From Rhodospirillales bacterium (GTDB lineage: Bacteria > Pseudomonadota > Alphaproteobacteria > Acetobacterales > Acetobacteraceae), in assembly GCA_015654825.1 (NCBI GenBank), contig JAATGE010000286.1, positions 1 through 14,112 on the forward strand: a stretch of DNA of 14,112 nucleotides. Direction: 5' to 3'. The translations under genes were made by a program, and so were the position numbers. Under the pieces are notes generated by a model. That model searched no databases. It was not told where the DNA came from and saw only the letters and a list, made by a program, of their open reading frames with translations. Positions within the stretch are counted from its first letter, which is position 1; every line of letters begins with the position of its first letter. Below are positions 1 through 14,112 of this stretch, one piece after another.

Positions 1-2
1 CG

Positions 3-686
3 GGGCTGGTGGTGCACCCGGCGCCCGGCAACGAGGACGGGACGCTGGTCAATGCGCTGCTGGCGCATTGCGGCGACAGCCTGCCGGGGATCGGCGGCGA
101 GCGGCGCCCCGGGATTGTGCATCGGCTGGATCGCGATACCTCCGGCGTGATGGTAGTGGCGAAGACGGAGGCGGCGCTCGCCGGGCTATCCGCGATGTTC
201 GCGGCCCGCGATCTGGAGCGCGAATACGTGGCGCTGGTGTGGGGCGTGGCCAGCCCCGCCGCGGGTGAAATCGAGGGCGCGATCGGGCGGGATCCGCGCG
301 ACCGCAAGCGAATGGCGATGGTGACGCGAGGCGGGCGCGCGGCACTGACCTATTACCGCACCGAGCGCGTGTTCGCGGGCAGCGTGAGCCTGCTGCAATG
401 CCGGCTGGCGACCGGGCGAACACACCAGATCCGGGTGCACCTGGCGAGCCGCGGGCATCCGGTGGTGGGCGACCCGGTGTATTTGCGGCGCATTCCGGCG
501 GTGAGCCGGGGATTGCCGGAAGAAGCGCGGCGGGCGCTGCTGGATTTTCCCCGCCAGGCGCTGCATGCGCGAAGCCTTGGGTTCCGCCATCCGCGAACCG
601 GAATAATGATGCGGTTCGAAACCGAAGTGCCGGAGGATTTCCGACAGTTGCTGCGGGTCCTCGACGGCATTTGGAATTCTGCTTGA
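3..686 (+). CDS. RluA/RluD-family 23S rRNA pseudouridine synthase (5' end missing)
   Basis: This enzyme isomerises specific uridines in large-subunit rRNA to pseudouridine in the cytoplasm. The reading frame is open from base 3, so the N-terminus (S4-like domain and first part of the catalytic domain) lies outside the window. The first visible residues, GLVVHPAPGN, are the usual RluA-family strand before the active site. The catalytic motif HRLDRDTSG follows, with the catalytic Asp codon at 129-131. Further on is TGRTHQIRVHLA (about 415-450), then GHPVVGDPVYL. The GDPVY ending is more like RluD than RluC, which usually has GDDKYG, so an RluD-type role (helix 69 of 23S rRNA) is the best guess. 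It stops with TGA at 684-686 and converges on the next gene across an AT-rich hairpin. The family is certain; the exact target is inferred. Confidence 0.93.
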   Translation, partial: GLVVHPAPGNEDGTLVNALLAHCGDSLPGIGGERRPGIVHRLDRDTSGVMVVAKTEAALAGLSAMFAARDLEREYVALVWGVASPAAGEIEGAIGRDPRDRKRMAMVTRGGRAALTYYRTERVFAGSVSLLQCRLATGRTHQIRVHLASRGHPVVGDPVYLRRIPAVSRGLPEEARRALLDFPRQALHARSLGFRHPRTGIMMRFETEVPEDFRQLLRVLDGIWNSA

Positions 687-733
687 CCGGCAGTTAATCG
701 GATGCTTCGGCCCAAGACGAAGGCCAAATGAAC

Positions 734-808
734 AAAAGTTTTTTGCTTCTTTTTTCAAAAAAGAACAAGAAAAAGCACTTCTTTTTGAAAAAAGAAGCAA
801 AAACTTTT
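734..808. repeat. Long AT-rich inverted repeat, copy 1 (probable bidirectional terminator)
   Basis: The left arm (734-765) and right arm (779-808) are about 30 bases each. They are complementary except for two one-base differences in homopolymer length, and a 13-base loop separates them. The arms contain the core GCTTCTTTTTTCAAAAA. The element sits between two converging genes (stops at 686 and 844), where a two-way transcription terminator is expected. A second copy lies at 9765-9829, and outside the arms both share a flank reading roughly AACAATTAA. Seeing the same element twice, each time between convergent genes, is direct from the sequence. The terminator role is inferred. I recall similar hairpins from Acetobacteraceae genomes. 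Confidence 0.85.
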
Positions 809-843
809 GATTAATTGTTGCTCGTTCGACGACGTCGCCGGGG

Positions 844-1524
844 CTAATCGATCAATGGTTCAATTAACGTGGGTGCGGCGGAAAACTCCACTTCGGCCTC
901 CGCCTGTTTGCGGTCCAGGCGCAGCTCGGTGGTGCCGTTGGCCCCCGGCGAGAGAACTTCGCGGCTGGCGCCAACCAGATAGAACACCTGGCCCCGGCTG
1001 CCCGGGGCGAAGCTGATGGCCAGCCCGCGCAGCCGGGGCGCGAACAGGGACGCCAGCAGGCCGGCATTGGAATGGGCGGCGATCGCGGCGGCGTCGCGCG
1101 CCTGCGCGCCGGCGCTGACGAACCAGGTGTACGGCATGCGCAAATGGGGCGGCGGCGCCACCGCGAGAATGATTTCCAGGCTCATCGTTCCGCGCGGCTG
1201 ATCGATGCCCACCGTGGGATTCTCGGCCCGCAGCGCGGCGGTAAGCGGCAGCGTGACAGTGCCGTCGGCGGCCACCGGAACAACCAGGGCGCCGCCGGCG
1301 GCGAAGATCGTGAGACGCGGTGGCGGGCTCAGCGGCGTGCCGGCGCGGCTCACCACGCGCTCGATGAAAATGAGCTTGTCGCGGCTAGGTGGGGGCAGGC
1401 CCATGAAATCGGACAGCGGTTTGGTCAGCGTACCATAGGGAAGGCCGCCGCTGGTTTCGGGCGCTGGCTGGGCGTTGCCGGCGAGCGGAATTACGGCCAG
1501 GAAGGCTGCAAGAAATCGGCGCAT
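844..1524 (-). CDS. Secreted protein of unknown function
   Basis: I do not recognise this 226-residue protein. The reading frame is open further upstream, but the preferred start is the ATG at 1524-1522 (MRRFLAAFLAV). It is preceded by GGAG at a 7-base spacing and begins directly with a signal peptide: two arginines, a hydrophobic stretch, then a likely cleavage after AGNA near residue 19. Alternative in-frame ATGs at 1530 and 1551 would add 2 or 9 residues. The mature part has no cysteine, no further clear membrane segment and many alternating hydrophobic stretches, which suggests a beta-rich periplasmic protein. A proline-rich segment (PPPSRD, PPPR) lies early, and two more PPP-type turns follow. 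It is transcribed away from the aldehyde dehydrogenase gene across a 152-base spacer and ends facing the pseudouridine synthase. GC-rich third positions support it as a real gene. Confidence 0.7.
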   Translation of the reverse strand: MRRFLAAFLAVIPLAGNAQPAPETSGGLPYGTLTKPLSDFMGLPPPSRDKLIFIERVVSRAGTPLSPPPRLTIFAAGGALVVPVAADGTVTLPLTAALRAENPTVGIDQPRGTMSLEIILAVAPPPHLRMPYTWFVSAGAQARDAAAIAAHSNAGLLASLFAPRLRGLAISFAPGSRGQVFYLVGASREVLSPGANGTTELRLDRKQAEAEVEFSAAPTLIEPLID

Positions 1525-1662
1525 GAACATGCTCCGTGGGATCACCGACATGGGCGACCGCGCTGGATATGGTGCGGCAAGGGCCGCAATGCGATGCTTG
1601 CGTTGCGCCCAGGTGGGTCGCACGCTGCCGCCCGAAGCGCCAAGCTGAAAACGGCACCACGC

Positions 1663-1671
1663 AGGAGGAGG
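1663..1671 (+). promoter_or_regulatory. Strong ribosome binding site fixing the aldehyde dehydrogenase start
   Basis: AGGAGGAGG lies five bases before the ATG at 1677. The reading frame is open upstream to 1536, but this site decides the start. No convincing promoter boxes were found in the divergent spacer 1525-1676. Confidence 0.85.
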
Positions 1672-1676
1672 TTTCC

Positions 1677-3113
1677 ATGGACCAGTTTGCCAGCGCGCCT
1701 GGTGGCATTGAGGAGTTGCTGAGCCGGCTGCTGGAGCGGCAGCGGGCGGCATTCATGGCGGCGCCGCGGCCCACGGCGCGCGAGCGCGCGGAGCATCTGC
1801 AGCGCCTGGAAACAGCGGTGAAGAAGAACCAGGATGCGATCGCCAATGCACTGGGCACCGATTTCGGCAATCGCGCGCGGCCCGAAACGGTGCTGGCGGA
1901 AATCCTGCCGACAATTGCCGCGTGCGGCTTCGCACGCAAGCATCTCGCTGGCTGGATGCGCCCGCAACGACGCGCCGTCGGGCTCAATTTCAAACCGGCG
2001 GTAAACCGCGTCGAGTATACGCCGAAGGGCGTCGTGGGCGTGGTCGCACCATGGAACTATCCGATCTACCTGACGCTCGGGCCGCTCGTCGATATTCTCG
2101 CCGCGGGCAATCGATGCATGATCAAGCCGAGCGAATTGACCCCGGCGACATCTGCACTGCTCGCCAAGCTGCTGGGCGACATTTTTCCGCCCGAGCAGGT
2201 TGCCGTGGTGCAGGGCGATGTTGCGGTGGGGCGGGCATTTTGCGCCCTGAAATTCGATCACCTGCTGTACACCGGCAGCACGCATGTGGGGCGTGAGGTG
2301 ATGCGGGCGGCGGCGGAGAACCTGGTGCCGGTGACACTGGAACTGGGCGGCAAGAGCCCGGTGATCGTGGCGGAAGATTACGACGTCGGCAAAGCCGCGA
2401 AATCGGTGGCGGTGGGCAAGTTCTTCAATGCCGGCCAGACCTGCGTCTCACCGGATTATGCGCTGGTGACCGGTGGCCGCGCCGAAAAATTCGCCCACTC
2501 CGTGCTGGCGGCGGCCGAGGCGATGTATCCGAAACTCGATGGCAATCCGGATTATACCGCGGTGATTTCGGACCGGCACCATGCGCGGCTGACCGGCCTC
2601 GTTGCCGAAGCGGAGGCGGCGGGCGCGACCATATTGCGCCATCGCGACAAGCCGACCGGCAATACCCGGCATTTTCCGCCGACCGTCGTGCTGAACCCGC
2701 CACTCGACGGCAAGCTGATGCAGGACGAGATTTTCGGGCCGATCCTGCCGGTGGTGCGGACCGAAAACCTCGATGCTGCTCTCGATTTCGTGAACACCCG
2801 ACCGCGTCCGCTGGCCCTGTATGCGTACACGAACGACAGCGCGACGGAGCGCAAAATTTTAGATCAAACGATCTCCGGCGGCGTCACCGTGAACTCGACG
2901 ATGCTGCATGTTGCGCAAGACGACATGCCATTTGGCGGGATCGGTCCCAGCGGAATTGGCGCGTACCATGGCCATGAAGGTTTTTTAGAATTTTCGCACA
3001 CACGAAGCCTGCATAAGCCTCGTTTCTTTACCGCCATCGAGATATTGAAGCCGCCTTACGCAACAAGGATGCGGCTAGCGCTCAAGATGCTCGCCGGGTT
3101 CGAACTAAAATAG
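1677..3113 (+). CDS. Coniferyl-aldehyde-type NAD(P)-dependent aldehyde dehydrogenase
   Basis: The protein has 478 residues, the usual size for the CalB branch of the aldehyde dehydrogenase superfamily. It should oxidise an aromatic or other hydrophobic aldehyde to the acid in the cytoplasm using NAD(P)+. The catalytic set is complete: Asn127 in PWNYP, Glu222 in LELGGKSP, and nucleophile Cys256 in GQTC. The IKPSE cofactor-site motif and EIFGPILPV are also present. The C-terminal DMPFGGIGPSGIGAYHG followed by F-SHTRS is characteristic of the CalB and fatty-aldehyde-type branch. The start is set by the AGGAGGAGG site at 1663. The next gene begins about 150 bases downstream on the same strand, so it could share regulation with the molybdoenzyme cluster, though the gap argues for a separate transcript. 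Substrate is inferred from family only; long-chain aliphatic aldehydes are an alternative. Confidence 0.93.
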   Translation: MDQFASAPGGIEELLSRLLERQRAAFMAAPRPTARERAEHLQRLETAVKKNQDAIANALGTDFGNRARPETVLAEILPTIAACGFARKHLAGWMRPQRRAVGLNFKPAVNRVEYTPKGVVGVVAPWNYPIYLTLGPLVDILAAGNRCMIKPSELTPATSALLAKLLGDIFPPEQVAVVQGDVAVGRAFCALKFDHLLYTGSTHVGREVMRAAAENLVPVTLELGGKSPVIVAEDYDVGKAAKSVAVGKFFNAGQTCVSPDYALVTGGRAEKFAHSVLAAAEAMYPKLDGNPDYTAVISDRHHARLTGLVAEAEAAGATILRHRDKPTGNTRHFPPTVVLNPPLDGKLMQDEIFGPILPVVRTENLDAALDFVNTRPRPLALYAYTNDSATERKILDQTISGGVTVNSTMLHVAQDDMPFGGIGPSGIGAYHGHEGFLEFSHTRSLHKPRFFTAIEILKPPYATRMRLALKMLAGFELK

Positions 3114-3265
3114 CAGCAATATCAATGCGCTGACGCGATCCCGGAAAGTTCTGCTTCCTATAGGTTAATTTTTTGGCCTTTTGGCCGGCGTCACGTCAAT
3201 TTTTCTTTGCATTTTAGATGAACCTTCGTTTAGGTTCGTCTCGAAAATTGGCGCGGAGCTGGCGC

Positions 3266-4828
3266 ATGGCCTCCTTGAGACGGCGCGGCACACTGACGTG
3301 TGTGCTGTTGGCAACGACCCTTCTGGCCCTACAGGCGCCAGCCAACGCGGCGGACGTATCGAACCTGGCGGCCGGCGGAACCACGGCGCGGGCGCCGGCC
3401 TCACAGCGCGCGCAAGTGCAATATTTCCTTCGCCGTTTCGCATTCTCGGCGCCGCCCGAAACAGTGACGTCGTTGCTCGGGACCGGCATCCCGGCCTGGC
3501 TGACCATACAGGATAATTGGCAGGCGCTCGATGATTCCGGGTCCATCCTGGAGACTCTGCCGACGCAACTGGTCAATGGCGGCCTGCCGGACTCCAACAT
3601 CTTCGAACGCGCCGTCCTGCAGCATATGATCCTGACGCCGCGGCAGCTGCAGGCCAAGCTGGAGCTGCACTGGCTGGATCATTTCTCCGTCGGACTGGAG
3701 AATGTCGGCGATCCGGCGCTGATGTATCATTACGACCAGGCGATACGCGCCAATGCCCTCGGCAACTTCGCAACGCTGCTGACCGCGGTCGCGCAGGAAG
3801 GCGCGATGCTGATCTGGCTGAACAACAACTACAATGCCGGCTCGGAGCCGAACGAGAATTTCGCCCGCGAGGTCATGCAGCTTTATTCGATGGGCATCTA
3901 TACGCTCAACCAGGATGGATCGATCAAGCTCGGGAAGAACGGCCAGCCGGCGCTGAACTACAACCAGAAGGACGTCGAAGCGCTCGCCAAAGCGATGACC
4001 GGCTACGGCGTCGTCTACGATAACAACAACAACAATCCGCAGACACGTTTTTCGGTGCAGTATTTCCCGGGCAACCACTATAGCGGCCCGCTGAAATATT
4101 TCGGCAAGTCGCAGAAGGTGCCGACCGACGGCACGGCGATCGCATACGTCATGCAGCAACTTGCGACCCGGCCGTCGACGGCGCCGTTCGAGGCCAAGGA
4201 ACTGCTGCAGCGCTTCGTCACCGAGGATCCGCCGGCGCAATATATTTCCGACATCGCAGCGGTCTGGGAAAGCACCAAGCGGGCGCCCGACCAGATCGCG
4301 CAGGTGATCACCGCCGTCGTCAACCATCCCGACTTCAACAGCTACTATAACGGCATGCTGAAACAGCCGGCGGAGCTTGTGCTCGGGGCGCTGCGGGAAG
4401 TCCCGGGAACCTTGCAGGCCACCGCGAACGTCGCACCTGGCGGCAGCCTGCTTTCGGAGCTGAACGGTCTGGGCCAGCAGCTGTTCTATCCGGCCACGGT
4501 GTTCTCGTTTTACCGGCCGGGCTATCTCGCCACCACCGCCAATACCGGCACGGTGCTGGACCGCACCGGCGTGTTCGCGAACATCACGAATGCGCAACCG
4601 AGCGGCGCCTATACCGATACCTATATCGACATCCCGACGCTGCGAACGCGGATCGGCAGCACGCATGGCGAGGAAATCGCCACCTACCTGCTCGACGCGA
4701 TGCTGGATGGCGGGTCGGCGAACCTTCAATCGATCCTGCGCGCGTATCTCGGCAAGACGCCCAGCGACAACCAGATCCGCGGCGCCATCTGGCTGCTGCT
4801 CAACGCCCCTGACTATGCGGTGAACTGA
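3266..4828 (+). CDS. DUF1800 family exported protein
   Basis: This 520-residue protein has an N-terminal signal peptide: MASLRRRGT, a hydrophobic core, then cleavage near residue 28 after PANA. The start at 3266 has GGAG seven bases upstream. An ATG at 3218 would add 16 residues but has no visible ribosome site. Family hallmarks are HMILTPRQLQAKLELHWLDHF (His of HWLDHF at residue 135) and NENFAREVMQLYSMGIYTL (Asn196). A stretch rich in Asn follows the TGYGV segment (NNNNNP, near residue 255). The biochemical function of DUF1800 proteins is not established. They are commonly encoded beside DUF1501 proteins, as here, where the DUF1501 gene starts one base after this stop codon. An envelope role together with the DUF1501 partner is inferred from the signal peptide and context. 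No domain appears truncated. Confidence 0.92.
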   Translation: MASLRRRGTLTCVLLATTLLALQAPANAADVSNLAAGGTTARAPASQRAQVQYFLRRFAFSAPPETVTSLLGTGIPAWLTIQDNWQALDDSGSILETLPTQLVNGGLPDSNIFERAVLQHMILTPRQLQAKLELHWLDHFSVGLENVGDPALMYHYDQAIRANALGNFATLLTAVAQEGAMLIWLNNNYNAGSEPNENFAREVMQLYSMGIYTLNQDGSIKLGKNGQPALNYNQKDVEALAKAMTGYGVVYDNNNNNPQTRFSVQYFPGNHYSGPLKYFGKSQKVPTDGTAIAYVMQQLATRPSTAPFEAKELLQRFVTEDPPAQYISDIAAVWESTKRAPDQIAQVITAVVNHPDFNSYYNGMLKQPAELVLGALREVPGTLQATANVAPGGSLLSELNGLGQQLFYPATVFSFYRPGYLATTANTGTVLDRTGVFANITNAQPSGAYTDTYIDIPTLRTRIGSTHGEEIATYLLDAMLDGGSANLQSILRAYLGKTPSDNQIRGAIWLLLNAPDYAVN

Positions 4829-4829
4829 C

Positions 4830-6098
4830 ATGCTGATCAAACGCCGGAACATACTGGGCGGCATGGGCGGCCTCGCGGTAACCCCCCTGTTCTGCAACAG
4901 CCTCGCCGCCGAAGAGGCGAACTCCAACGGCCTCATTGTCGTGTCGATCCTGCTGTCCGGCGGCAATGACGGGCTGAACACCGTCGTGCCGCTGCCGCAA
5001 TACGGCAACTATTACAAGCTGCGCACGCCGGCGGCACCGCCGCAGGGCCTGAACCTGGCTTATTCGGAGAGCGACCTCTCGCTGCTGGCGTTCAATGCGG
5101 ACCCGAAAGTGCCGCCGCTGCAGGCGACCGACTACGCGTTCACGCCCTCGATGCTGGCGATGCGCGATCTCTATACCACCGGCAACCTGGCGGTGATCGC
5201 CGGTGTTTCGCTGCCGCTCGCTGAAACGAATGCGCTGAGCCACACCAACGCGACAATGGATTGGCTGACCGGGCAGATCAATATCGGCCTGGTCACGCCG
5301 CCGGGCTGGCTCGGCCTGTCGCTGGATGGCGTGAAGGGCGGCGCGCTTGGCGCGACCGCGTCGATGGGCGGCAGTTCGCAGCTGGTGGTCGGCAGCACGC
5401 ATCAGGGCCTGGTGATCAACCCGCCGATGGATTATTTCGGGGTCAATTACGGCGTCAGCGACGACCAGAAGAAGCTCGAGGGCGCCTACAAGAAAATCGG
5501 CGTGCTGCCGGCTTCGAGCCCGACCGGGCGGGCGGATCAGAAGATCATGCAGACCGCGCTCTCGGATATCAAGACCGTACAGGCGATTGCCAAGCACGAG
5601 AAGGCCAGTAGCTATCCGCTGCAGAGCTGGCTCGACTATCAGTTGCGCGATATCGGACGCCTGATCGTCGGCGGCGCCGGCGTGCGCGGCTTCCTTGCCG
5701 TGCAGGGCGGCTACGATACGCACTACCAGCAGGCACTGTATCAGCCGACGCTGCTGAGCCAGCTCGGGCAATCGATCGTGAATTTCTACGAATACCTGGC
5801 TGCCGCCAGTGCTTCCCGGAACGTGGTGATCATGACGATGTCGGATTTCGGGCGCCGGCCGGCCGCCAATCTGGATTTCGGCACCGACCATGGCGGCGGC
5901 ACGGTGAGCTTCGTGTTCGGCGATCAGGTGAAGGGCGGCGTATATGGCACCTATCCGAGCCTGAAACAGTTCGACCCGAACGGCAACCTGAAGATGTCGG
6001 TGGATTTCCGCAACGTGCTCTCCGACCTGATCGTGGCGATGGGCGGCGATGCGACGGCGATCCTCGGCCAGACGTACCCGGCGCTCGGTTTTATCTGA
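4830..6098 (+). CDS. DUF1501 family exported protein (Tat-type signal)
   Basis: This 422-residue protein starts one base after the DUF1800 stop (TGACATG), so translation is probably coupled. The N-terminus, MLIKRRNILGGMGG followed by a short hydrophobic stretch and SLAAEE, fits a twin-arginine (Tat) signal. DUF1501 proteins belong to the alkaline-phosphatase/sulfatase-like fold group. Their hallmark motifs are all present: SGGNDGLN (residues 43-50), GGYDTH (293-298, with Asp296 and His298 as likely metal ligands), and MSDFGRR followed by GTDHGGG (Asp353, His354). The C-terminal YGTYPSL and FRNVLSDLI segments also match the family. The reaction is unknown; a hydrolase-like or metal-binding role is inferred only from the fold. 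It lies between the DUF1800 gene and the molybdoenzyme genes in a closely packed operon, and all of these products are expected outside the cytoplasm. Confidence 0.92.
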   Translation: MLIKRRNILGGMGGLAVTPLFCNSLAAEEANSNGLIVVSILLSGGNDGLNTVVPLPQYGNYYKLRTPAAPPQGLNLAYSESDLSLLAFNADPKVPPLQATDYAFTPSMLAMRDLYTTGNLAVIAGVSLPLAETNALSHTNATMDWLTGQINIGLVTPPGWLGLSLDGVKGGALGATASMGGSSQLVVGSTHQGLVINPPMDYFGVNYGVSDDQKKLEGAYKKIGVLPASSPTGRADQKIMQTALSDIKTVQAIAKHEKASSYPLQSWLDYQLRDIGRLIVGGAGVRGFLAVQGGYDTHYQQALYQPTLLSQLGQSIVNFYEYLAAASASRNVVIMTMSDFGRRPAANLDFGTDHGGGTVSFVFGDQVKGGVYGTYPSLKQFDPNGNLKMSVDFRNVLSDLIVAMGGDATAILGQTYPALGFI

Positions 6099-6107
6099 GT
6101 TCGGCGC

Positions 6108-6554
6108 GTGGCCAGCCTGACCGTCAACGGCCAGACGTACCAGATACAGTCCGACCCTTCGACACCGGTGCTGTGGCTGATCCGCGACGTGATCGGCCTC
6201 AAGGGCACGAAATATGGCTGCGGCATTTCGGTATGCGGCGCCTGCACCATTCTGGTCGGCGGCACGCCGCAGCGCAGTTGCCAGATCACCATGGCCGATA
6301 TCAACGGCGCGCCGGTCACCACGATCGAGGGACTTTCAGCAGACAGCAGCCATCCGTTGCAGCAGGCGTGGATCGCGCACCAGGTGCCGCAATGCGGGTT
6401 CTGCCAGTCCGGCCAGATCCTGCGGGCGACGCAATTGATCGCCAACGGCAAGATACCGAGCGATGCCGATATCAACGTCACAATGAACAATATCTGCGTA
6501 TGCGGCACCTATACGCGCATGCGCGCGGCGATCCATAGCGCGGCCGGCGGCTGA
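6108..6554 (+). CDS. [2Fe-2S] subunit of a xanthine-dehydrogenase-family molybdoenzyme (IorA-like)
   Basis: This 148-residue subunit passes electrons from the molybdenum site to an acceptor. It starts with GTG at 6108, nine bases after the DUF1501 stop, with only a weak ribosome site. The first cluster is bound by Cys38, Cys43, Cys46 and Cys58 (plant-ferredoxin fold, [10 protein letters not shown]). The second is bound by Cys96, Cys99, Cys130 and Cys132 (QCGFCQSGQ and [10 protein letters not shown]). The spacing matches the small subunits of isoquinoline 1-oxidoreductase and related aldehyde or nicotinate dehydrogenases. It has no signal peptide of its own. In this enzyme group the small subunit normally folds, binds the large subunit and crosses the membrane with it through Tat. 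Its stop overlaps the start of the large subunit by one base (TGATG), which implies stoichiometric translation. Confidence 0.95.
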
Positions 6555-8791
6555 TGCGTTACGCCGCCGCCATCGCCGCGCGGCGCGCATCATCTGCCGC
6601 CTTATCGCCGTCGGCGGATCGCGACCCGTCATGTGACTGCGAACCATGTGCGGCGCGCGCCGCGCATGGCGCCGGCGTTGGCCTGAACCGCCGCAATTTC
6701 CTGTTTTCGGGGGTCGCCGCCTGCGGCGGCCTGCTGATCGGCGTCGGAGTACCGGGTCGCGCGCGCGCCACCGGCGGGACCTACCGGATTACCGCATGGG
6801 TCAGCGTCGGCACCGACGAAACCGTCACGATCCTGAGTGGCAGCCAGGAGATGGGCCAGGGGATTTATTCCGCCCTGGCGCAGATCGTCGCCGAGGAATT
6901 GCGCGTCGACTGGCCGCAGGTGCAGGTGGGACCGGCGCCGCTGGCTGCCGTGTTCGACAATCCGCTGCTCGGCGCACAAACAACGGCGGGCAGTTCGAGC
7001 GTACGCGGCTATTTTTCAGCGCTGCTGGAAGCCGGTGCCATCGCACGGCAGATGCTGATCGAGGCCGGTGCCGCGGCCATGGGCGTAAAACCGAAGGCGT
7101 GCGTGGCGGCCGGCGGCAAAGTGGTGGTGAAGGCAACCGGCCAATCGGTCACGTTCGGCAGCGTGGCGGCGGCCGCCTCGCAACTGAAACCGCCGAAGAA
7201 AGCGACACTTTACTCGAATTCCGGCTTTGTGCTGGTCGGCCAGCCGGTGCCGCGGCCCGAATTGCCGGCCAAGGTGAACGGGACGGCGGTGTACGGCTCG
7301 GATGTTGTGGTGCCGGGCATGCTGTATGGCGCGGTACTGCTTTGCCCGACCCGCGGCGGAACAGTGGCCACGATGGGGCCGGCGCCTTCCGGCAGTCAGG
7401 CGGTCAATCTCGGCACCGGCATCGCGGCGGTGGCGAACGCCGGGCCGAACGGTACCACCTGGACGGCGATGCAGGCGGTCAAACAGGTGAAGGTGACCTG
7501 GAGTTTGCCGGCCGATGCCGCACAGCAGACAAGCAAGATAATTCTCTCCGAGGCCGAGACGTTGCTGGTCAGCGGCAACGCGATCGTCGCCGAAACCGTA
7601 GGCGATGTCGCCAGCGCCCAGGCAGGCGCGGCAAAAGTGCTGACCCTGACTTATATTCTGCCTTACGTACCGCACACCACCCTGGAAACCCCCAACTGCA
7701 CCGCCCGCGTGACCGCCAGGACCTGCGAAATCTGGGCCTCGACGCAGGCGCCGGCGGGCGCGCAGGCGGTCGCCGCCAGCATCACCGGATTGAAGCCGCA
7801 GGCAATTACGGTGAATTGCATGCAGATGGGCGGCGGCCTCGGGCGCAAGCTGGAACAGGATTTTGTTGCTTATGCAGTGATTGCATCGAAGGCGCTTGGC
7901 GTGCCGGTGCAGCTGGTGTTTCCGCGCGAGCAGGATTTCACCCAGGATCAGTACCGGCCGATGGCGGTGTGCCGCGTGACGGTCGGGCTCGACAAGAGCG
8001 GACGCATCGTCAGCTGGGATTTTCGTAACGTTTCACCAAGTATCCTGTACCAGCGCGGCTATATCGTCGACGGGCAGCTCGATGACCAGGCGACCGAGGG
8101 CGCGACCGGCCTGCCCTATGCGCTGCCGAACCGGCTGATGGACTGGGTGCGCCATCCGGCAACGGTTCCGGTCGGCTTCTGGCGCTCGGTCGGCAATTCG
8201 ATCAATGCATTCGCCTGCGAAAGCGCCGTCGACGAGGCGGCGCTGGCCTCGCGAACCGATCCGCTGGCCTACCGGCAAGGCCTGCTCGCCGGCAACGCGC
8301 GGGCGTTGGCGGTGCTGAACCAGGCCGCGGCGCTCGGCGGCTGGGGGGTCACACGGCAAGGTTACGCGAACGGGCTGGCATACCACGAGCAATTCGGCAC
8401 GCTGGCGGCCGTCGTGGTGACGATTACCGAAACGAGCGGGGTGATCCAGGTACTGAATGTGGCATGCGCGGTGGATTGCGGCATGGTGGTGAACCCGGAC
8501 ACGGCGGCGCAGCAGATCGAGGGCGGCATCGTGCAGGGGCTGACGTCGGCGCTGTGGAGCCAGATCCTGTTCAAGAACGGCATAGCCCAGACCAGCAACT
8601 TCGACAATTACCGGATGATGCGGATGGCCGACATGCCGACCGTGGAGGTCAGCTTGCTGCAGACGCCGGGGGCGCCACTGGGCGGGCTCGGCGAGGTCGG
8701 CGTGCCGTGCATGGCGCCGGCTCTGGCCAATGCCTGGGCCAAACTGACGGGAAAGCGGCTGCGGACCTTGCCGCTGTTTCCCAAAGGGTAA
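6554..8791 (+). CDS. Molybdopterin-binding large subunit, xanthine dehydrogenase family (IorB-like, Tat-exported)
   Basis: This 745-residue subunit carries the molybdenum cofactor and hydroxylates or oxidises an aldehyde or N-heterocycle. Tat motif [10 protein letters not shown] (Arg46, Arg47) is followed by a hydrophobic stretch and a cleavage region near GRARA. Cofactor motifs in order are GSQEMGQG (Gln98-Gly103), [12 protein letters not shown] (from Gly426), [13 protein letters not shown] (from Gly541), and GGLGEVG with the expected catalytic base Glu714. The length matches IorB-type subunits. ATG at 6554 overlaps the preceding stop. It leaves an unusual 43-residue leader before the Tat motif, with a CDCEPC cluster (Cys27, 29, 32) and no better downstream start. 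No cytochrome c subunit gene, the frequent partner in acetic acid bacteria, follows. Substrate cannot be read from sequence. The upstream aldehyde dehydrogenase and the DUF1501/DUF1800 pair are the only hints. Confidence 0.93.
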
Positions 8792-8805
8792 CGTTAAAGC
8801 AGAGG

Positions 8806-8822
8806 CCGGGGCTCCGCCCTGG
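8806..8822. repeat. Degenerate CCAGGGGC-type hairpin repeat
   Basis: CCGGGGC (8806-8812) and GCCCTGG (8816-8822) form a 7-bp stem with one G-T pair and a 3-base loop. Read on the minus strand it begins CCAGGGCGGAGCCCC and then CGGCCT. It therefore matches the repeat at 12917-12935 (CCAGGGGCAGAGCCCCTGG then CCT). It lies 14 bases after the molybdoenzyme stop, and a terminator or message-stabilising role is possible but has no T-tract to support it. Confidence 0.6.
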
Positions 8823-8844
8823 TACCGACATTTGAGGGGATGTC

Positions 8845-9096
8845 ATGAATGAAGTAGTCGATGCCACGTTGCCGAGCGGGACGTCCGCCCTGCGGCGCGC
8901 GATCCTGGGCGGTGCGATCGCGTTGTGCGGCATGATCGTGGGCTCCGATGCCGAGGGCCGGGCACTGTTCCAGCAAGTCGAAATGCATGCGGCCCCGCGG
9001 CTCTCGCGCACCGCGTCGACAGAGATTCGCCGGAAGGCTACCGCCCTGTCCTGGACCCGTCACGCGCAGCGTGCTTTCGCGCGAAGCGGCCAGTAG
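8845..9096 (+). CDS. Small hypothetical protein with one possible membrane segment
   Basis: I do not recognise this 83-residue ORF. A good ribosome site (GAGGGGA at 8834-8840) precedes the ATG, and codons are GC-rich at third positions, like real genes nearby. Residues about 17-34 (RRAILGGAIALCGMIVGS) form one weakly hydrophobic segment after two arginines, suggesting an exported or membrane-anchored product. The remaining C-terminal half is basic with no recognisable motif. It starts 53 bases after the molybdoenzyme gene, separated by a hairpin repeat, and may or may not belong to that transcript. The protein could instead be a remnant of a longer gene. It contains no haem-binding CxxCH, so it does not supply the missing cytochrome subunit. 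Confidence 0.45.
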   Translation: MNEVVDATLPSGTSALRRAILGGAIALCGMIVGSDAEGRALFQQVEMHAAPRLSRTASTEIRRKATALSWTRHAQRAFARSGQ

Positions 9097-9199
9097 GCCT
9101 CCACCCCATTTTGGCTGGCCCGGAACTGGCATCGACACCGAGCCAATCGGTCCGTCGGGCCAATGCACGTGCTGGGTGGCGTTGTGAGAACCTGCCAAA

Positions 9200-9218
9200 G
9201 GCGCCACACTGTGGCGCC
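9200..9218. promoter_or_regulatory. 19-base palindrome upstream of bacterioferritin
   Basis: GGCGCCACACTGTGGCGCC is a perfect palindrome around a central base and ends 39 bases before the bacterioferritin ATG. It could be an operator for a dimeric regulator, or an 8-bp hairpin in the 5' leader. It does not match the iron-box patterns I know for Irr or RirA (AT-rich). No T-tract follows, so an intrinsic terminator is unlikely. Confidence 0.4.
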
Positions 9219-9257
9219 CGGCGCGTGACCCGGGCCGCGACATTCGGAGGACGGAGC

Positions 9258-9740
9258 ATGCAGGGCGAGGCCGGGGTCATCGACTACCTCAACAAAGCGC
9301 TGCGGCACGAGCTGACTTCCGTCAATCAGTACTGGCTGCACTACCGCCTGCTGGAAAACTGGGGATTCCGCGCCCTGGCGAAAAAATGGCGCCAGGAATC
9401 AATCGAGGAAATGCAGCACGCTGACAAGATCATCGAGCGCATCCTGTTCCTGGAAGGCTCGCCGAACATGCAGACGCTGGAAACGCTGCGGATCGGCAAG
9501 ACCATAAAGGAGGTGATCGAGCGGGATATGCAGACCGAACTCGATGCGCGTGCGTTATATGAGGCGGCGGCCGCGCATTGCCAGGAAGTGCGGGACTACG
9601 TAACCCGGATACAGTTCGAGGGATTGCTGCACGACGAAGAGAAACACATAGATTTCCTGGAAACGCAGCTTGAACTGATCAGCCGCCTCGGTGTGGAACT
9701 CTATGCACAGCATCATATCGGCGGCCTGGACGAGGACTGA
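9258..9740 (+). CDS. bfr: Bacterioferritin (haem-containing iron-storage protein)
   Basis: Bacterioferritin assembles into a 24-subunit cytoplasmic shell that oxidises Fe(II) and stores it as mineral. It also lowers free-iron stress. The 160-residue length is standard. The dinuclear ferroxidase ligands are complete and sit at the same numbers as in E. coli Bfr: Glu18, Glu51, His54, Glu94, Glu127 and His130. Met52, the haem ligand at the subunit interface, is present. The frame is open upstream, but the start at 9258 is fixed by GGAGG at 9246-9250 (7-base spacing) and by exact family alignment of MQG-E-VIDYLNKAL. A palindrome at 9200-9218 lies in the leader. No bacterioferritin-associated ferredoxin gene is adjacent. 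The gene ends just before an AT-rich hairpin that separates it from a convergent gene. Confidence 0.97.
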   Translation: MQGEAGVIDYLNKALRHELTSVNQYWLHYRLLENWGFRALAKKWRQESIEEMQHADKIIERILFLEGSPNMQTLETLRIGKTIKEVIERDMQTELDARALYEAAAAHCQEVRDYVTRIQFEGLLHDEEKHIDFLETQLELISRLGVELYAQHHIGGLDED

Positions 9741-9764
9741 CGTCCGAATAAGGAACAATTAACC

Positions 9765-9829
9765 AAAGTTTTTGCTTCTTTTTTCAAAAAGAAGTCTGTT
9801 CTTTTTTGAAAAAAGAACCAAAAACGTTT
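9765..9829. repeat. Long AT-rich inverted repeat, copy 2 (probable bidirectional terminator)
   Basis: The left arm (about 9765-9793) and right arm (9799-9829) share the core GCTTCTTTTTTCAAAAA with copy 1 at 734-808. Here the loop is only 5 bases (GTCTG). The right arm differs by GGTTC for GCTTC and by small insertions. It lies between the bacterioferritin stop (9740) and the stop of the minus-strand gene at 9832. Its flank AACAATTAA on the left corresponds to the right flank of copy 1 read in reverse, so the two copies are in opposite orientation and are related beyond the hairpin itself. Confidence 0.85.
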
Positions 9830-9831
9830 AT

Positions 9832-10938
9832 TCACTGGCGTTCCGTTTTGGGCAGCGCGTCAGACTGAACTCTGCCGAGTATTTCATCCGCCTCGCCAGA
9901 CTTTATGGCATGAAGCAGTGGATTTGATTGTGATTCCGGGAAGCGCGCCACGTAGGCGGCGCTGTCGAACCAGGGGCCGGGGGCAATGCCCTCGGCGGCG
10001 CCGTGCAACAGAAAATCCCAGACCGGGTCGGCGCCCGAGGCGGCCAGTTGCGGACGTTGCGCGAGATACCAGGCCGGGTCGAACAGCGGGCAGGCGCGCA
10101 GCAGCGCCGCGTCGGCCAGCAACTGTGCGTCGTCAGCGGAGGGGCTTTCCCGCCGGCGCCGCAGGCGCCCCCAGAAACCGCGCGGTTTCGGAACACTGCC
10201 GCGCGCTTCGTGCAGCGCGGCGATGGTGTTGCGATCGCGACTTTGAATGACCACGCCGATCCAGGTGCCGAGGCGCTGCCAGGCGATCAGCTGCGTGCGC
10301 AACGAAGCCGCCGCAGCCTCGGCCTGGTCGGTGCGGTTGCGCAACGCTGCCTCGCGCGCGACCAGTGCCGCGATTTCCGCCTGCCGCGCGTCCAACGCCT
10401 TTTTCAGGTGGTCGCGGTCGCCGCCTTCGGCAAGCTCGGCCTCCAGCACCGCCACGCGCTGGCTGGTGCTGGCGAGCGCACCGCCGAGTGCCAGGCGCTC
10501 CGCGAAGGCGGACAATTCGCTCTCCGCGGCGGTCGCATTGCGATCCACCAGGAAGGCGCCCTGGCCGAGGAACGCGGTGTCGTACTCCACCACGGGCTGA
10601 AAGCCGTGCTCGGCGAAAATTTCGAACCAGGCATCCAGATCGAGCGGGCCGGCGGCACCCAGCGGCACCGGGATCAGCAGCAGGCGGTCCGTCGCGGTCG
10701 CCAGGGACTGGATGCGCGCGGCTTCCACGAGGTCGCGCGCGGCGTCGGGCGGGGCCAGCAGGATCGCAAGATCGTAGGCGACCGCCTCGCCCGCCACAAA
10801 AATTTCGGGCGTGGCGCCAGCCTCGGCGAGTGCGGCTGCGAAGGCCGCCTCGCCCACCCCGGAGACGGCGAGCGCGATCGGCATCAGGTCGGCAACGATT
10901 CGGGCGGCGAGGCCGCGCAGTTCGACCGTGGCGCTCAT
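9832..10938 (-). CDS. Glycan-locus protein: degenerate methyltransferase-like region, coiled coil and glycosyltransferase-associated repeat
   Basis: This 368-residue protein has three visible parts. Residues 1-135 alternate strands and helices (DLAILLAPPDAARDLVEAAR, then LLLIPVPLG, then a GFQPVVEYDTAFLGQGAFLV end). This resembles the second half of SAM-dependent methyltransferases in polysaccharide loci, but with no glycine-rich SAM loop. Residues about 155-222 form an Ala/Glu/Leu-rich coiled coil. Residues 286-335 carry the pattern FDPAWYLAQRPQLAASGADP-W-FLLHGAAEG-AP-PWFDSAAYVARFP, a repeat I know from the ends of large exopolysaccharide glycosyltransferases. A basic patch (GRLRRRRE) precedes that repeat. 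It overlaps the preceding gene by four bases (ATGA), so the two are translationally coupled. A role in surface-glycan assembly is inferred; enzyme activity is doubtful. Confidence 0.75.
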   Translation of the reverse strand: MSATVELRGLAARIVADLMPIALAVSGVGEAAFAAALAEAGATPEIFVAGEAVAYDLAILLAPPDAARDLVEAARIQSLATATDRLLLIPVPLGAAGPLDLDAWFEIFAEHGFQPVVEYDTAFLGQGAFLVDRNATAAESELSAFAERLALGGALASTSQRVAVLEAELAEGGDRDHLKKALDARQAEIAALVAREAALRNRTDQAEAAAASLRTQLIAWQRLGTWIGVVIQSRDRNTIAALHEARGSVPKPRGFWGRLRRRRESPSADDAQLLADAALLRACPLFDPAWYLAQRPQLAASGADPVWDFLLHGAAEGIAPGPWFDSAAYVARFPESQSNPLLHAIKSGEADEILGRVQSDALPKTERQ

Positions 10939-11579
10939 GCGGCGATCCCGAGGCGGGCAGCCCTGGTATAGGGAAACAGCGGGTCCCAGGGCGATGGCAG
11001 GGCCGGTTCGAGATCGGCCCGTTCACGCGATGTCAGCAGTTCCAGCAGAAAATCAACCTCGCTGGTGCCCTCCCGGTCGAGCGCGCGGACATAGACGCTG
11101 GCCTCCTCGTCGCCGGGCCAGCGGTTCAGCGCGAAGCGAAAAGTGACATCGACGAAACGCGGGGTTCCCATGGCGGCGCGTTCATCCGCCAGGTTCAGGC
11201 AATGCGGGGCGCGACTGAGATCGGCGGCGGTCCAGGTGGGCGGTTCGACGAGAAGCTGCTCCACGTGAACCTGATGCGGGGGGAGCAGCACCGGCACCAC
11301 GAGCCGCACGCGGATCGACTGGTCGCGGCGCGGCAAAAACAGTTCGAAGTCGGTGGGACCGGGGGCGAGTGAATGGCGCAGGCGGGCGGCAAATCCGTAA
11401 TGGCCGTGGCCGTGCGCGGCGCCCAGCAGGTCGGCGCGGAAGGCGAGGGCAGCGGCCTCCGCGACCGGCCGGTGGCGATGGCGGATTTCCAGCAATGCCG
11501 GCGTCGCATCCTGCGTGTCACGCAGCCAGCCGGAAAAAACCCCCTCCGGCGACAGCGATTCCAGCGTGCCCTCGATCAT
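10935..11579 (-). CDS. DUF4214-like protein of a glycan locus
   Basis: The 214-residue protein has two domains. Residues about 3-110 resemble the small beta domain found at the ends of many glycosyltransferases: G-LESLSPEGVFSGWLRD, then A-AFRADLLGAAHGHGHYGFAARL. Residues about 142-187 (FVDVTFRFALNRWPGDEEASVYVRALDREGTS then FLLELLTSRE) match the DUF4214 pattern, also common beside polysaccharide enzymes. The ATG at 11579-11577 has only a weak GGGA upstream. Its stop overlaps the start of the next gene (10938) by four bases, giving a two-gene operon on the minus strand. No catalytic residues can be seen, so it is more likely an accessory or binding protein than an enzyme. Neither domain has a settled biochemical function. 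Confidence 0.75.
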   Translation of the reverse strand: MIEGTLESLSPEGVFSGWLRDTQDATPALLEIRHRHRPVAEAAALAFRADLLGAAHGHGHYGFAARLRHSLAPGPTDFELFLPRRDQSIRVRLVVPVLLPPHQVHVEQLLVEPPTWTAADLSRAPHCLNLADERAAMGTPRFVDVTFRFALNRWPGDEEASVYVRALDREGTSEVDFLLELLTSRERADLEPALPSPWDPLFPYTRAARLGIAA

Positions 11580-11751
11580 GTCGGCGTCCCGCGGCAGGCG
11601 CGCGGTCTGGTGCCGGTGCGCCGGTTCTTGCTACCCAACGGCGGGACAGAATCTGCCACGAAGGGCATCGGAAAAATTGCTTCGCGCATGGAGTGACGCA
11701 CCTGCCTTTCTGCTGAGCTGTCCGGGTCCGCCGCGGCGGCACCATGCGGCG

Positions 11752-12849
11752 GTGCAGCCGATTTCTCAACTGCGGTTGCCACAGTGCCTGCTCGGCGGCG
11801 AGGCGCAGCTGATGGCGTTCGCCGCGGCCAATCCGGAGTTGTCGGGCAAGCTGTTCTTTACGTCGATGCCGGAAATGTTCTTCACGCCCACCAGCCTGCG
11901 GGCGCTGTGGGAGGCGGCGGGCGCGGCACCCTCCGACGGCGGCATCGTGCACCTGCGCTTCGGCGGCACGCGCAACGCGAGGGTATTGAAGGGCGCCCGC
12001 AACGGGCTGGTGCTGGCCGAGGATCACGAAGCCCCCCCGCTGACCGCCAGCCGACACCCGTTTGCCAGCGGCCTGGTGCTGCCGGCGCACATGCGGCGCG
12101 TGTTCGCCTACAGCCGAAGGGTTGCCCGCCCGGCCGCGATCGGCAGTGACAGGACGCCGCTGACCGCGCTGCCGGACGAGTACATGGCCGCGGACCTGGC
12201 AGGGCGCCGCGGCGGGCGCGGTCGCGACGCCGCGGCCGAGGGACTGGAGATCGTCTCGCTGGCGGAGTTCCGCTCCAACGCCTGGGCGGCCGGCCCGGTG
12301 CGCGAGGGGTCGGCGGACCTGGCGGCGGCACTGCAACCGCGCAACCGGGCGCCGTTCGTGCTGCTGCCATGGAACCTGAACCATCCGGGCACCGCCGTGC
12401 CGACGCTGATCGAGCGCACGCTAAGCCTGCAGCGGGCCGCGCGGCCGACGGTGCGGCTGCTGGTTCTGCCGTTCAATTATCCGGGCCAGACCGGGTTGAT
12501 CCGCCGCATGATCCGGCATGTGCGGGCAACCGCGGATGACGGGGCGGCCGCATTGCAAGGCGTGTTCGTGGGTCGGTTGAGCTCGCTCGCATCACTGCCT
12601 GCGCTACGGCGGCTGGCGCGCGTGGCGTGGGTGGACGGCAACGACCCGGAGTATGACTGGACCATGCGCAGGCTGGCCGCGAGCGGCATCGAGCCGCTGC
12701 TGATGGACGCGGACGACGCCGTGACGATTTCGGCGGAGACAAGGTACGGGCTCCTGCACTTCGATACCAAACTGCCCTCGCTACGATCGTTACGAAGACT
12801 GATAGAAGAACGAAAAAGCCCGGGCGCGCTTACCCCCAGCCAGGATTAA
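11752..12849 (+). CDS. Protein of unknown function in a glycan locus
   Basis: I do not recognise this protein, 365 residues from the GTG at 11752. The frame is open upstream to 11515, but that part overlaps the opposite-strand gene and reads as low-complexity, Arg/Ser/Pro-rich shadow sequence. ATG at 11812, with GAGG eight bases upstream, is a credible alternative start (345 residues). The N-terminal region (GKLFFTSMPEMFFTPTSLRALW, then GGIVHLRFGG) and the C-terminal half look globular. The latter alternates strands and helices: FVLLPWNLNHPGTAVPTLIERTLSLQ, then VRLLVLPFNYPGQTGLIRRMI, then WVDGNDPEYDWTMRRL. That could be a Rossmann-like or glycosyltransferase-related fold. It has no signal peptide or membrane segment. 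The stop lies 10 bases before a glycosyltransferase-type ORF, and it is divergent from the two glycan-locus genes, so a shared role is likely. Confidence 0.7.
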   Translation: MQPISQLRLPQCLLGGEAQLMAFAAANPELSGKLFFTSMPEMFFTPTSLRALWEAAGAAPSDGGIVHLRFGGTRNARVLKGARNGLVLAEDHEAPPLTASRHPFASGLVLPAHMRRVFAYSRRVARPAAIGSDRTPLTALPDEYMAADLAGRRGGRGRDAAAEGLEIVSLAEFRSNAWAAGPVREGSADLAAALQPRNRAPFVLLPWNLNHPGTAVPTLIERTLSLQRAARPTVRLLVLPFNYPGQTGLIRRMIRHVRATADDGAAALQGVFVGRLSSLASLPALRRLARVAWVDGNDPEYDWTMRRLAASGIEPLLMDADDAVTISAETRYGLLHFDTKLPSLRSLRRLIEERKSPGALTPSQD

Positions 12850-12859
12850 ATTCGGAGCA

Positions 12860-13768
12860 ATGTCGCACTCGGAACAAAAACCAAAATGGGGTTTGGGGAC
12901 TAGTCCCCAACGGGGTCCAGGGGCAGAGCCCCTGGCCTACTTTCCGCGCGCCCAACGCCGCCTGGCCGCCGCCGGCGCACTCATCTATTTCGACCTGTCA
13001 CCATTGCGCGAAGCCCACTGGACCGGCATTCCCGTAGTCGCCGCCGGCTTCGCGCGCGCGCTGCTGGACCTGCTGCCCGATCATGTGCGGTTCTTCGAGG
13101 GCCGCGATCTGATCGACGCGGGCGCCGTGGACGACGCGCTGCGGCGCAATACCGGGCTTTATCTCGATCGCGACATCACGCGCGGTTATGCGCTGGCCGG
13201 CAAGCTGCCGAGGTTCGGCGAACCGGGCCTGACGGTGGGATTTTTCCCGTCGGTCAAGCCGCTGCGGCGTGCGTTCGATATCGAACTGAATATCTGCCAC
13301 GACCTTTCCACCATCACTTTTCCGCTCATGCATATCCGCGGCAACGTGGTGCACCACACGGAGGCGATCCTCGCCGATCTGGCCAGCGACGACCTCGTGG
13401 TGACGGTTTCCGAAGCGTCGCGGGCAGATCTCGTGGCCTATCTCGGCGTGGACCCGGCACGGATCGTGGCGGCACCGAATGGAGTGGCCTGGCCCGACTG
13501 GTACGAAAGCGAGGCGGTGAATGAGGCGGGTGCCGAGGCAGTCGCTGATTCAGTGGAGGCAGGCGTGATTCCCGCTAGCAAAGCCGAGGATCTGGTCTTC
13601 GTCTTTGGCGTGTTCATTCACCCCGCCGCAGCCGACGACAAGAAGATCTATCAGTTCAACTACGAAGCCACGAAGATGGCCATCGCCAGCGCCATGGCCG
13701 GCAAGCCCACCGCCGGCGACATGATCGCCGGCAAAGAAAAAGCCGTCCATCCCTTCCGCGGCTTCTAA
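12860..13768 (+). CDS. Chimeric ORF: N-terminal half of a GT4-type glycosyltransferase joined to the C-terminal half of Fae
   Basis: The 302-residue frame encodes two unrelated half-proteins. Residues about 38-215 are the acceptor-side domain of a GT4-family glycosyltransferase: YFDLSPLREAHWTGIP, NICHDLSTITFPLMH (His147), VVTVSEASRADLVAYLGVDP (Ser184), and APNGV (Pro206-Gly208). The sugar-nucleotide half with its E-x7-E motif is absent. From about residue 225 the sequence is instead the end of formaldehyde-activating enzyme. Residues about 9-28 are a translated hairpin repeat. The ATG at 12860 has GGAG only two bases upstream, and no other start precedes the conserved part. It lies 10 bases after the preceding gene. 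Neither parent activity should survive, because the Fae part lacks the half with the active-site histidine. It may be an assembly chimera rather than a real gene. Confidence 0.7.
   Translation: MSHSEQKPKWGLGTSPQRGPGAEPLAYFPRAQRRLAAAGALIYFDLSPLREAHWTGIPVVAAGFARALLDLLPDHVRFFEGRDLIDAGAVDDALRRNTGLYLDRDITRGYALAGKLPRFGEPGLTVGFFPSVKPLRRAFDIELNICHDLSTITFPLMHIRGNVVHHTEAILADLASDDLVVTVSEASRADLVAYLGVDPARIVAAPNGVAWPDWYESEAVNEAGAEAVADSVEAGVIPASKAEDLVFVFGVFIHPAAADDKKIYQFNYEATKMAIASAMAGKPTAGDMIAGKEKAVHPFRGF
12893..12935. repeat. Double hairpin repeat inside the start of a coding region
   Basis: TTGGGGACTAGTCCCCAA (12893-12910) is a perfect 18-base palindrome. It is followed by CCAGGGGC-AGA-GCCCCTGG (12917-12935), an 8-bp stem with a 3-base loop. 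The second half is related to the degenerate copy at 8806-8822. I recall this type of element as a dispersed extragenic repeat in Acetobacteraceae. Here it falls inside the reading frame that begins at 12860 and would be translated. Confidence 0.75.
13532..13768 (+). pseudogene. 3' fragment of a formaldehyde-activating enzyme gene (fae)
   Basis: The last ~79 codons of the chimeric ORF read AEAVADSVEAGVIP, KAEDLVFVFGVFIHPAAADD, KIYQFNYEATKMAIASAMAG and EKAVHPFRGF. This is the standard C-terminal half of Fae, which couples formaldehyde to tetrahydromethanopterin in methylotrophs and some Planctomycetes. The N-terminal half of Fae, including the catalytic His, is missing. Codon use shifts here toward a more mixed third position (GTC GCT GAT TCA, ATT CCC GCT AGC AAA). 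Followed within 5 bases by a planctomycete-type repeat, it is most likely the end of a planctomycete gene. Confidence 0.8.
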
Positions 13769-13772
13769 TCAC

Positions 13773-13797
13773 ACTAGCCCGACGCGCAAGCGAGGGA
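13773..13797 (+). repeat. Planctomycete-type intergenic repeat
   Basis: The stretch begins ACTAGCCCGACGCGCAAG and continues GCGAGGGA. It matches from memory a dispersed repeat (TAGCCCGACGCG-nAAGCGAGGGA) common between genes in Rhodopirellula-like genomes. It starts 5 bases after the stop of the Fae fragment. It is not seen elsewhere in the window. Confidence 0.6.
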
Positions 13798-13826
13798 AAA
13801 CCGCGTGGTGTCGCAAGCCCCGGTTT

Positions 13827-13843
13827 GAGTTTCCGTGAAACTC
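13827..13843. repeat. Short perfect hairpin after the Fae fragment
   Basis: GAGTTTC (13827-13833) and GAAACTC (13837-13843) pair around the loop CGT. No T-tract follows. It is probably part of the same intergenic repeat block as 13773-13797. Confidence 0.5.
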
Positions 13844-13877
13844 TAGCTCCAAGCTCGGAACAACCTCACAACCCACC

Positions 13878-13909
13878 AACCGGGAGCAAACCCTGCTCCC
13901 GGTTTTTTT
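13878..13909 (+). terminator. Strong intrinsic terminator
   Basis: An 11-bp perfect stem (13878-13888 with 13894-13904, AACCGGGAGCA pairing with TGCTCCCGGTT) encloses the loop AACCC. It runs into seven T residues (13903-13909). It ends transcription from the Fae-containing unit before the next gene. Confidence 0.92.
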
Positions 13910-13943
13910 GTCCCCACGCAGAATTTTCCTTCTGGAGAATCCG

Positions 13944-14112
13944 ATGGACTGGCACCGTCTCGCCTGCATCCTCTGCCCGACTGTGATTTGGATTCTAGGA
14001 ATCGTTGGTCCCCTTCATGCCCAGTCAGAATTGAAGATCAGCACCGATTTCGAAGGTGGCTCAGCACGCGTCATCGAGCTTGATTCAGCGAATCGCAAAG
14101 TTCACATTGCAC
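13944..14112 (+). CDS. Start of an exported protein, possibly an M14-type zinc carboxypeptidase (3' end missing)
   Basis: Fifty-six codons are visible. GGAG at 13934-13937 lies six bases before the ATG. A signal peptide is clear: MDWHRLA, a hydrophobic core (ILCPTVIWILGIVGPL), and cleavage after HAQ near residue 27. The mature start, LKISTDFEGGSARVIELDSANRKVHIA, resembles the N-terminal beta domain of M14-family (cytosolic-carboxypeptidase-like) proteins that I recall from Planctomycetes. There a DFEGGS segment precedes the peptidase domain. The zinc-binding residues would lie beyond the window, so the catalytic class is unproven. Base composition and codons (CTA, GGA, TCA, AAT, GTT, CTT) differ clearly from the GC-rich genes to the left and agree with the Fae fragment's neighbourhood. 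Confidence 0.6.
   Translation, partial: MDWHRLACILCPTVIWILGIVGPLHAQSELKISTDFEGGSARVIELDSANRKVHIA

Follow-up and report, generated by a model that had tools for sequence, protein, structure and literature searches.

The apparent fusion of a glycosyltransferase with formaldehyde-activating enzyme (Fae) near the right-hand end of this contig is almost certainly an artefact, the chimeric end of a metagenome contig, and not a fusion gene. The window, by which we mean the whole stretch of 14,112 bases analysed, corresponds to contig C506 from end to end; the draft genome has 680 contigs, 3.45 Mb, 66.47% completeness and a contamination figure of 0.1%. A single open frame at 12860-13768 on the forward strand encodes 302 residues and passes from the N-terminal half of a glycosyltransferase to the C-terminal half of Fae. 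The in-frame switch reported in a preliminary description of this DNA is therefore present, as seen in this frame, in a Pfam Fae match of 88.9 bits and in the glycosyltransferase homologues. The features discussed below are these:

12860-13768, forward strand: apparently chimeric open reading frame, glycosyltransferase N-half plus Fae C-half, 302 residues.
12885-12945, forward strand: stretch with a dispersed palindromic repeat of the left arm, whose core CAGGGGCAGAGCCCCTGG is present 145 times in the window's genome.
13004-13534, forward strand: glycosyltransferase N-half, with residues 50-225 identical to the intact protein P0002, whose called start is TTG at 13004.
13532-13538, no strand: junction interval GCC GAG G, a short overlap of both parents.
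13538-13768, forward strand: C-terminal half of Fae with its stop codon, planctomycete-like.
13775-13796, forward strand: dispersed repeat TAGCCCGANGCGCNAGCGAGGG, 22 bases, once in the window's genome and 22 copies in the planctomycete genome G060.
13944-14112, forward strand: start of an open reading frame cut by the contig end, with a weak match in one planctomycete genome.

In the left half of the frame, Pfam Glyco_transf_4 is matched at residues 174-209 with 25.6 bits, below the cut-off of 28.5. The same domain is also sub-threshold in intact P0002 (25.3 bits against 28.5), in which Glycos_transf_1 lies above cut-off. Hence, identification of this half as a glycosyltransferase rests on homologues and on the intact relative. 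P0002 is a protein of 375 residues entered as 'MAG: glycosyltransferase family 1 protein [Rhodospirillales bacterium]', its organism being identified from this name only, and the longest contig that carries it has 87,179 bases. Window residues 50-225 are identical to it throughout (176 residues), and when residue 49 is included there is one difference, at the start codon of P0002 itself, which is TTG in the window and printed as M. Beyond residue 225, an ungapped comparison with P0002 gives 2 identical residues in 77; P0002 continues into and through Glycos_transf_1, whereas the window changes to Fae after residue 225-226. Thus, an intact counterpart of the gene interrupted in the window exists, as P0002, in the same species or one very close to it. 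By its identity to P0002 the frame has the N-terminal acceptor-side domain of a GT4-like enzyme, and the C-terminal nucleotide-sugar domain (Glycos_transf_1), present in P0002, is absent from it. Starts are called differently among the homologues, with P0002 beginning at TTG 13004 and P0003, P0007 and P0042 aligning from window residue 1.

A genome of the same genus (G001) carries an uninterrupted glycosyltransferase in an open frame of 444 residues, with 73% identity over residues 25-216, and Fae was not found in this genome. Exact copies of the repeat core CAGGGGCAGAGCCCCTGG number 145 in the window's genome and 37 in G001; the 10 further genomes searched, 8 planctomycete-side and 2 of the window's own family (G004 and G013), contained none. 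Absence from the two same-family genomes indicates that this repeat marks the genus and not the family. Together, the host repeat and the same-genus homologue show that the left arm is part of the host genome. As single-stranded DNA, the repeat at 12885-12945 has a good fold (z -3.0). The called open reading frame runs through it as coding sequence, and its translation matches many places.

The right half of the frame matches Pfam Fae (PF08714) at residues 220-299 with 88.9 bits (cut-off 27), covering profile positions 79-158 of 159. Likeness to Fae, including P0079 and the planctomycete copies, lies in window residues 227-302, of which 65 of 76 are identical to P0079. The N-terminal half of Fae is lacking in the window, and with profile positions 1-78 missing the frame does not hold a full-length Fae fold. 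Both families are therefore cut, as had been described, the glycosyltransferase by loss of Glycos_transf_1 and Fae by loss of the first 78 of 159 profile positions. A search of the window's genome located Fae in one place only, this half-length copy, and full-length Fae occurs in 3 of 60 relatives when the window's own is left uncounted (two of the same family and one of the same class).

Several matches of the right arm point towards planctomycetes. Of 297 genomes in the class to which G064 belongs (a Planctomycetaceae bacterium, the genome of locus L021), 275 matched the Fae half, with listed identities up to 77%. The best of 10 named Fae loci belongs to a Planctomycetia bacterium (78%); these loci comprise five planctomycete, four gemmatimonadete and one patescibacterial, so that Fae alone cannot name the phylum. 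At the DNA level, the right arm (13532-14112) has a match in 254 of 396 genomes from the order to which G060 belongs (Planctomycetia; this genome carries locus L013). The listed DNA matches are confined to the first 261 bases, which are essentially fae, with 77-83% identity in the top rows, and none of the genomes searched gave a near-identical match. The cut open reading frame at 13944 matched G064 with E values of 8.9e-4 (46%) and 0.036 (with internal stops), and a G064 protein at 47% over 36 residues. It gave one match in G060 (E 0.284), and the remaining 5 of the 7 genomes searched gave no match.

Next to fae lies the 22-base repeat TAGCCCGANGCGCNAGCGAGGG, which occurs in the window's genome as a single copy at 13775-13796 and in G060 in 22 copies, among which four pairs lie close together in inverted orientation. 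The reversed-pattern control gave none. This repeat was absent from the other 10 genomes searched, 7 of them planctomycete-side, so that one of eight planctomycete-side genomes is positive, and it was absent from the 59 other relatives. Accordingly, the right arm looks planctomycete-like. The two arms are of different lineage, in agreement with the preliminary description, with a planctomycete-like right arm and lineage-specific repeats on either side of the join.

Composition separates the arms weakly. Tetranucleotide divergence between them, a comparison that had been proposed earlier, is 0.211, a weak shift that 8 of 130 overlapping left-arm pieces equal or exceed. GC content is 0.568 in the right arm and 0.650 in the left, with 7 of these 130 pieces as low, and GC3 values of the two half-genes are nearly equal (0.795 and 0.769).

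Identity to the glycosyltransferase reaches A225 (13534), or E226 with a three-residue difference tolerated, which is slightly further right than the end near 13507 that had been assigned to this half. From A227 (13538) onward the frame aligns with Fae P0079, about where the preliminary description had placed the beginning of Fae, and A225 is also common to both proteins. Around these residues the window reads GCC GAG GCA, and the planctomycete loci L013, L030, L031, L032 and L033 read GCC AAG GCC. From this comparison, the stretch common to both parents appears to be a few bases, and the final bases GCC-nAG-GC (13532-13539) are the only ones that could have provided junctional microhomology. 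GAGGCGG at 13511-13517 and 13523-13529 and GAGGC at 13535-13539, to which the join had been tentatively ascribed, are present as described. The two GAGGCGG copies are native glycosyltransferase codons (ESEAVNEAG, identical in intact P0002), and we reject them as a cause of the join for this reason; the motif occurs eight times on the forward strand of 1-13500 and is hence not special.

These observations support the suspicion of a misjoin raised earlier, through the identical uninterrupted glycosyltransferase elsewhere, the planctomycete-like right arm and the lineage-specific repeats. The right-hand 575-580 bases or so are almost certainly foreign to the host of the contig, which is Rhodospirillales-like (alphaproteobacterium-like). 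On this reading they represent a planctomycete-like fragment that holds the C-terminal half of fae, the intergenic region behind it and the beginning of the following gene, and that has been attached to the broken glycosyltransferase gene of this host. Most likely the two were brought together in a chimeric library molecule, or by a misjoin at low coverage where the contig ends, and a few common bases may have aided this. To our knowledge, assemblers do not merge sequences on an overlap of so few bases, and such an overlap would rather point to a chimeric library molecule or to extension by very few reads. We infer that the join was made in the library or assembly and not in a cell, with assembly error and a chimeric template molecule as candidates. 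The window resembles the known kind of chimeric metagenome contig in that DNA of two lineages meets within truncated genes close to the end of a contig; with an overlap of a few bases, it is probably more like a chimeric fragment than like a repeat-driven graph error. An in-frame outcome needs no selection, since by simple arithmetic random coding pieces agree in strand and frame about once in six.

We consider it very improbable that a real recombination inserted planctomycete DNA in this strain and broke the glycosyltransferase gene, leaving the fused frame as a functionless by-product. The in-frame join without a stop could be read as microhomology-mediated, but another Rhodospirillales MAG has an uninterrupted protein with 176 residues identical to the window. 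Moreover, about 575 bases separate the join from the contig end, chimeric joins typically sit at contig ends, and the contig shows no far boundary of the planctomycete-like DNA. For the missing glycosyltransferase C-half, the window's genome yielded only paralogues of 30-35% identity, as expected if it had been lost; this draft is 66% complete, and the absence fits a missing contig as well as a real loss. Slightly less credible again is the more specific proposition that recombination between phyla, in at least one cell lineage, produced an in-frame glycosyltransferase-Fae protein from half-genes joined at a few common bases. As for a functional glycosyltransferase-Fae enzyme, the single open reading frame is the only point in its favour, and with both folds cut (the frame lacks Glycos_transf_1 and the first 78 of 159 Fae profile positions) and the architecture found in no other of the 120 homologues listed, such an enzyme is very unlikely.

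This last comparison comes from a search in which 7998 candidates were scored and 131 passed an E value of 0.001. The best 120 of these 131 comprise the window's own protein (P0001), 41 Fae proteins and 78 glycosyltransferase-side proteins, for 3 of which no precomputed domains are given. Among these 120, Fae and glycosyltransferase domains occur in one protein only in P0001, and homologues of the same architecture, which had been named as evidence against a misassembly, are thus absent from the list besides the window's own protein.

Returning to the chimeric contig end as the preferred reading, P0001 is recorded in a very large protein collection with two domains, Fae plus Glyco_transf_4, and if unchecked could pass for a methylotrophy marker in the wrong lineage. 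As far as we know, contamination estimates based on marker genes are blind to a foreign end of 580 bases. Two further proteins among the homologues join other sequences to Fae on short contigs: P0102 (a contig of 1325 bases) combines an N-terminal part of the type VI secretion protein VipA (T6SS) with a nearly complete Fae, and P0120 (860 bases) combines an N-terminal part without Pfam match with the C-terminal half of Fae. Both may be chimeras of the same kind as the frame in the window. Elsewhere in the contig, a row of genes at 3218-8791 encodes DUF1800 and DUF1501 proteins, a [2Fe-2S] subunit and a molybdopterin-binding oxidase subunit.
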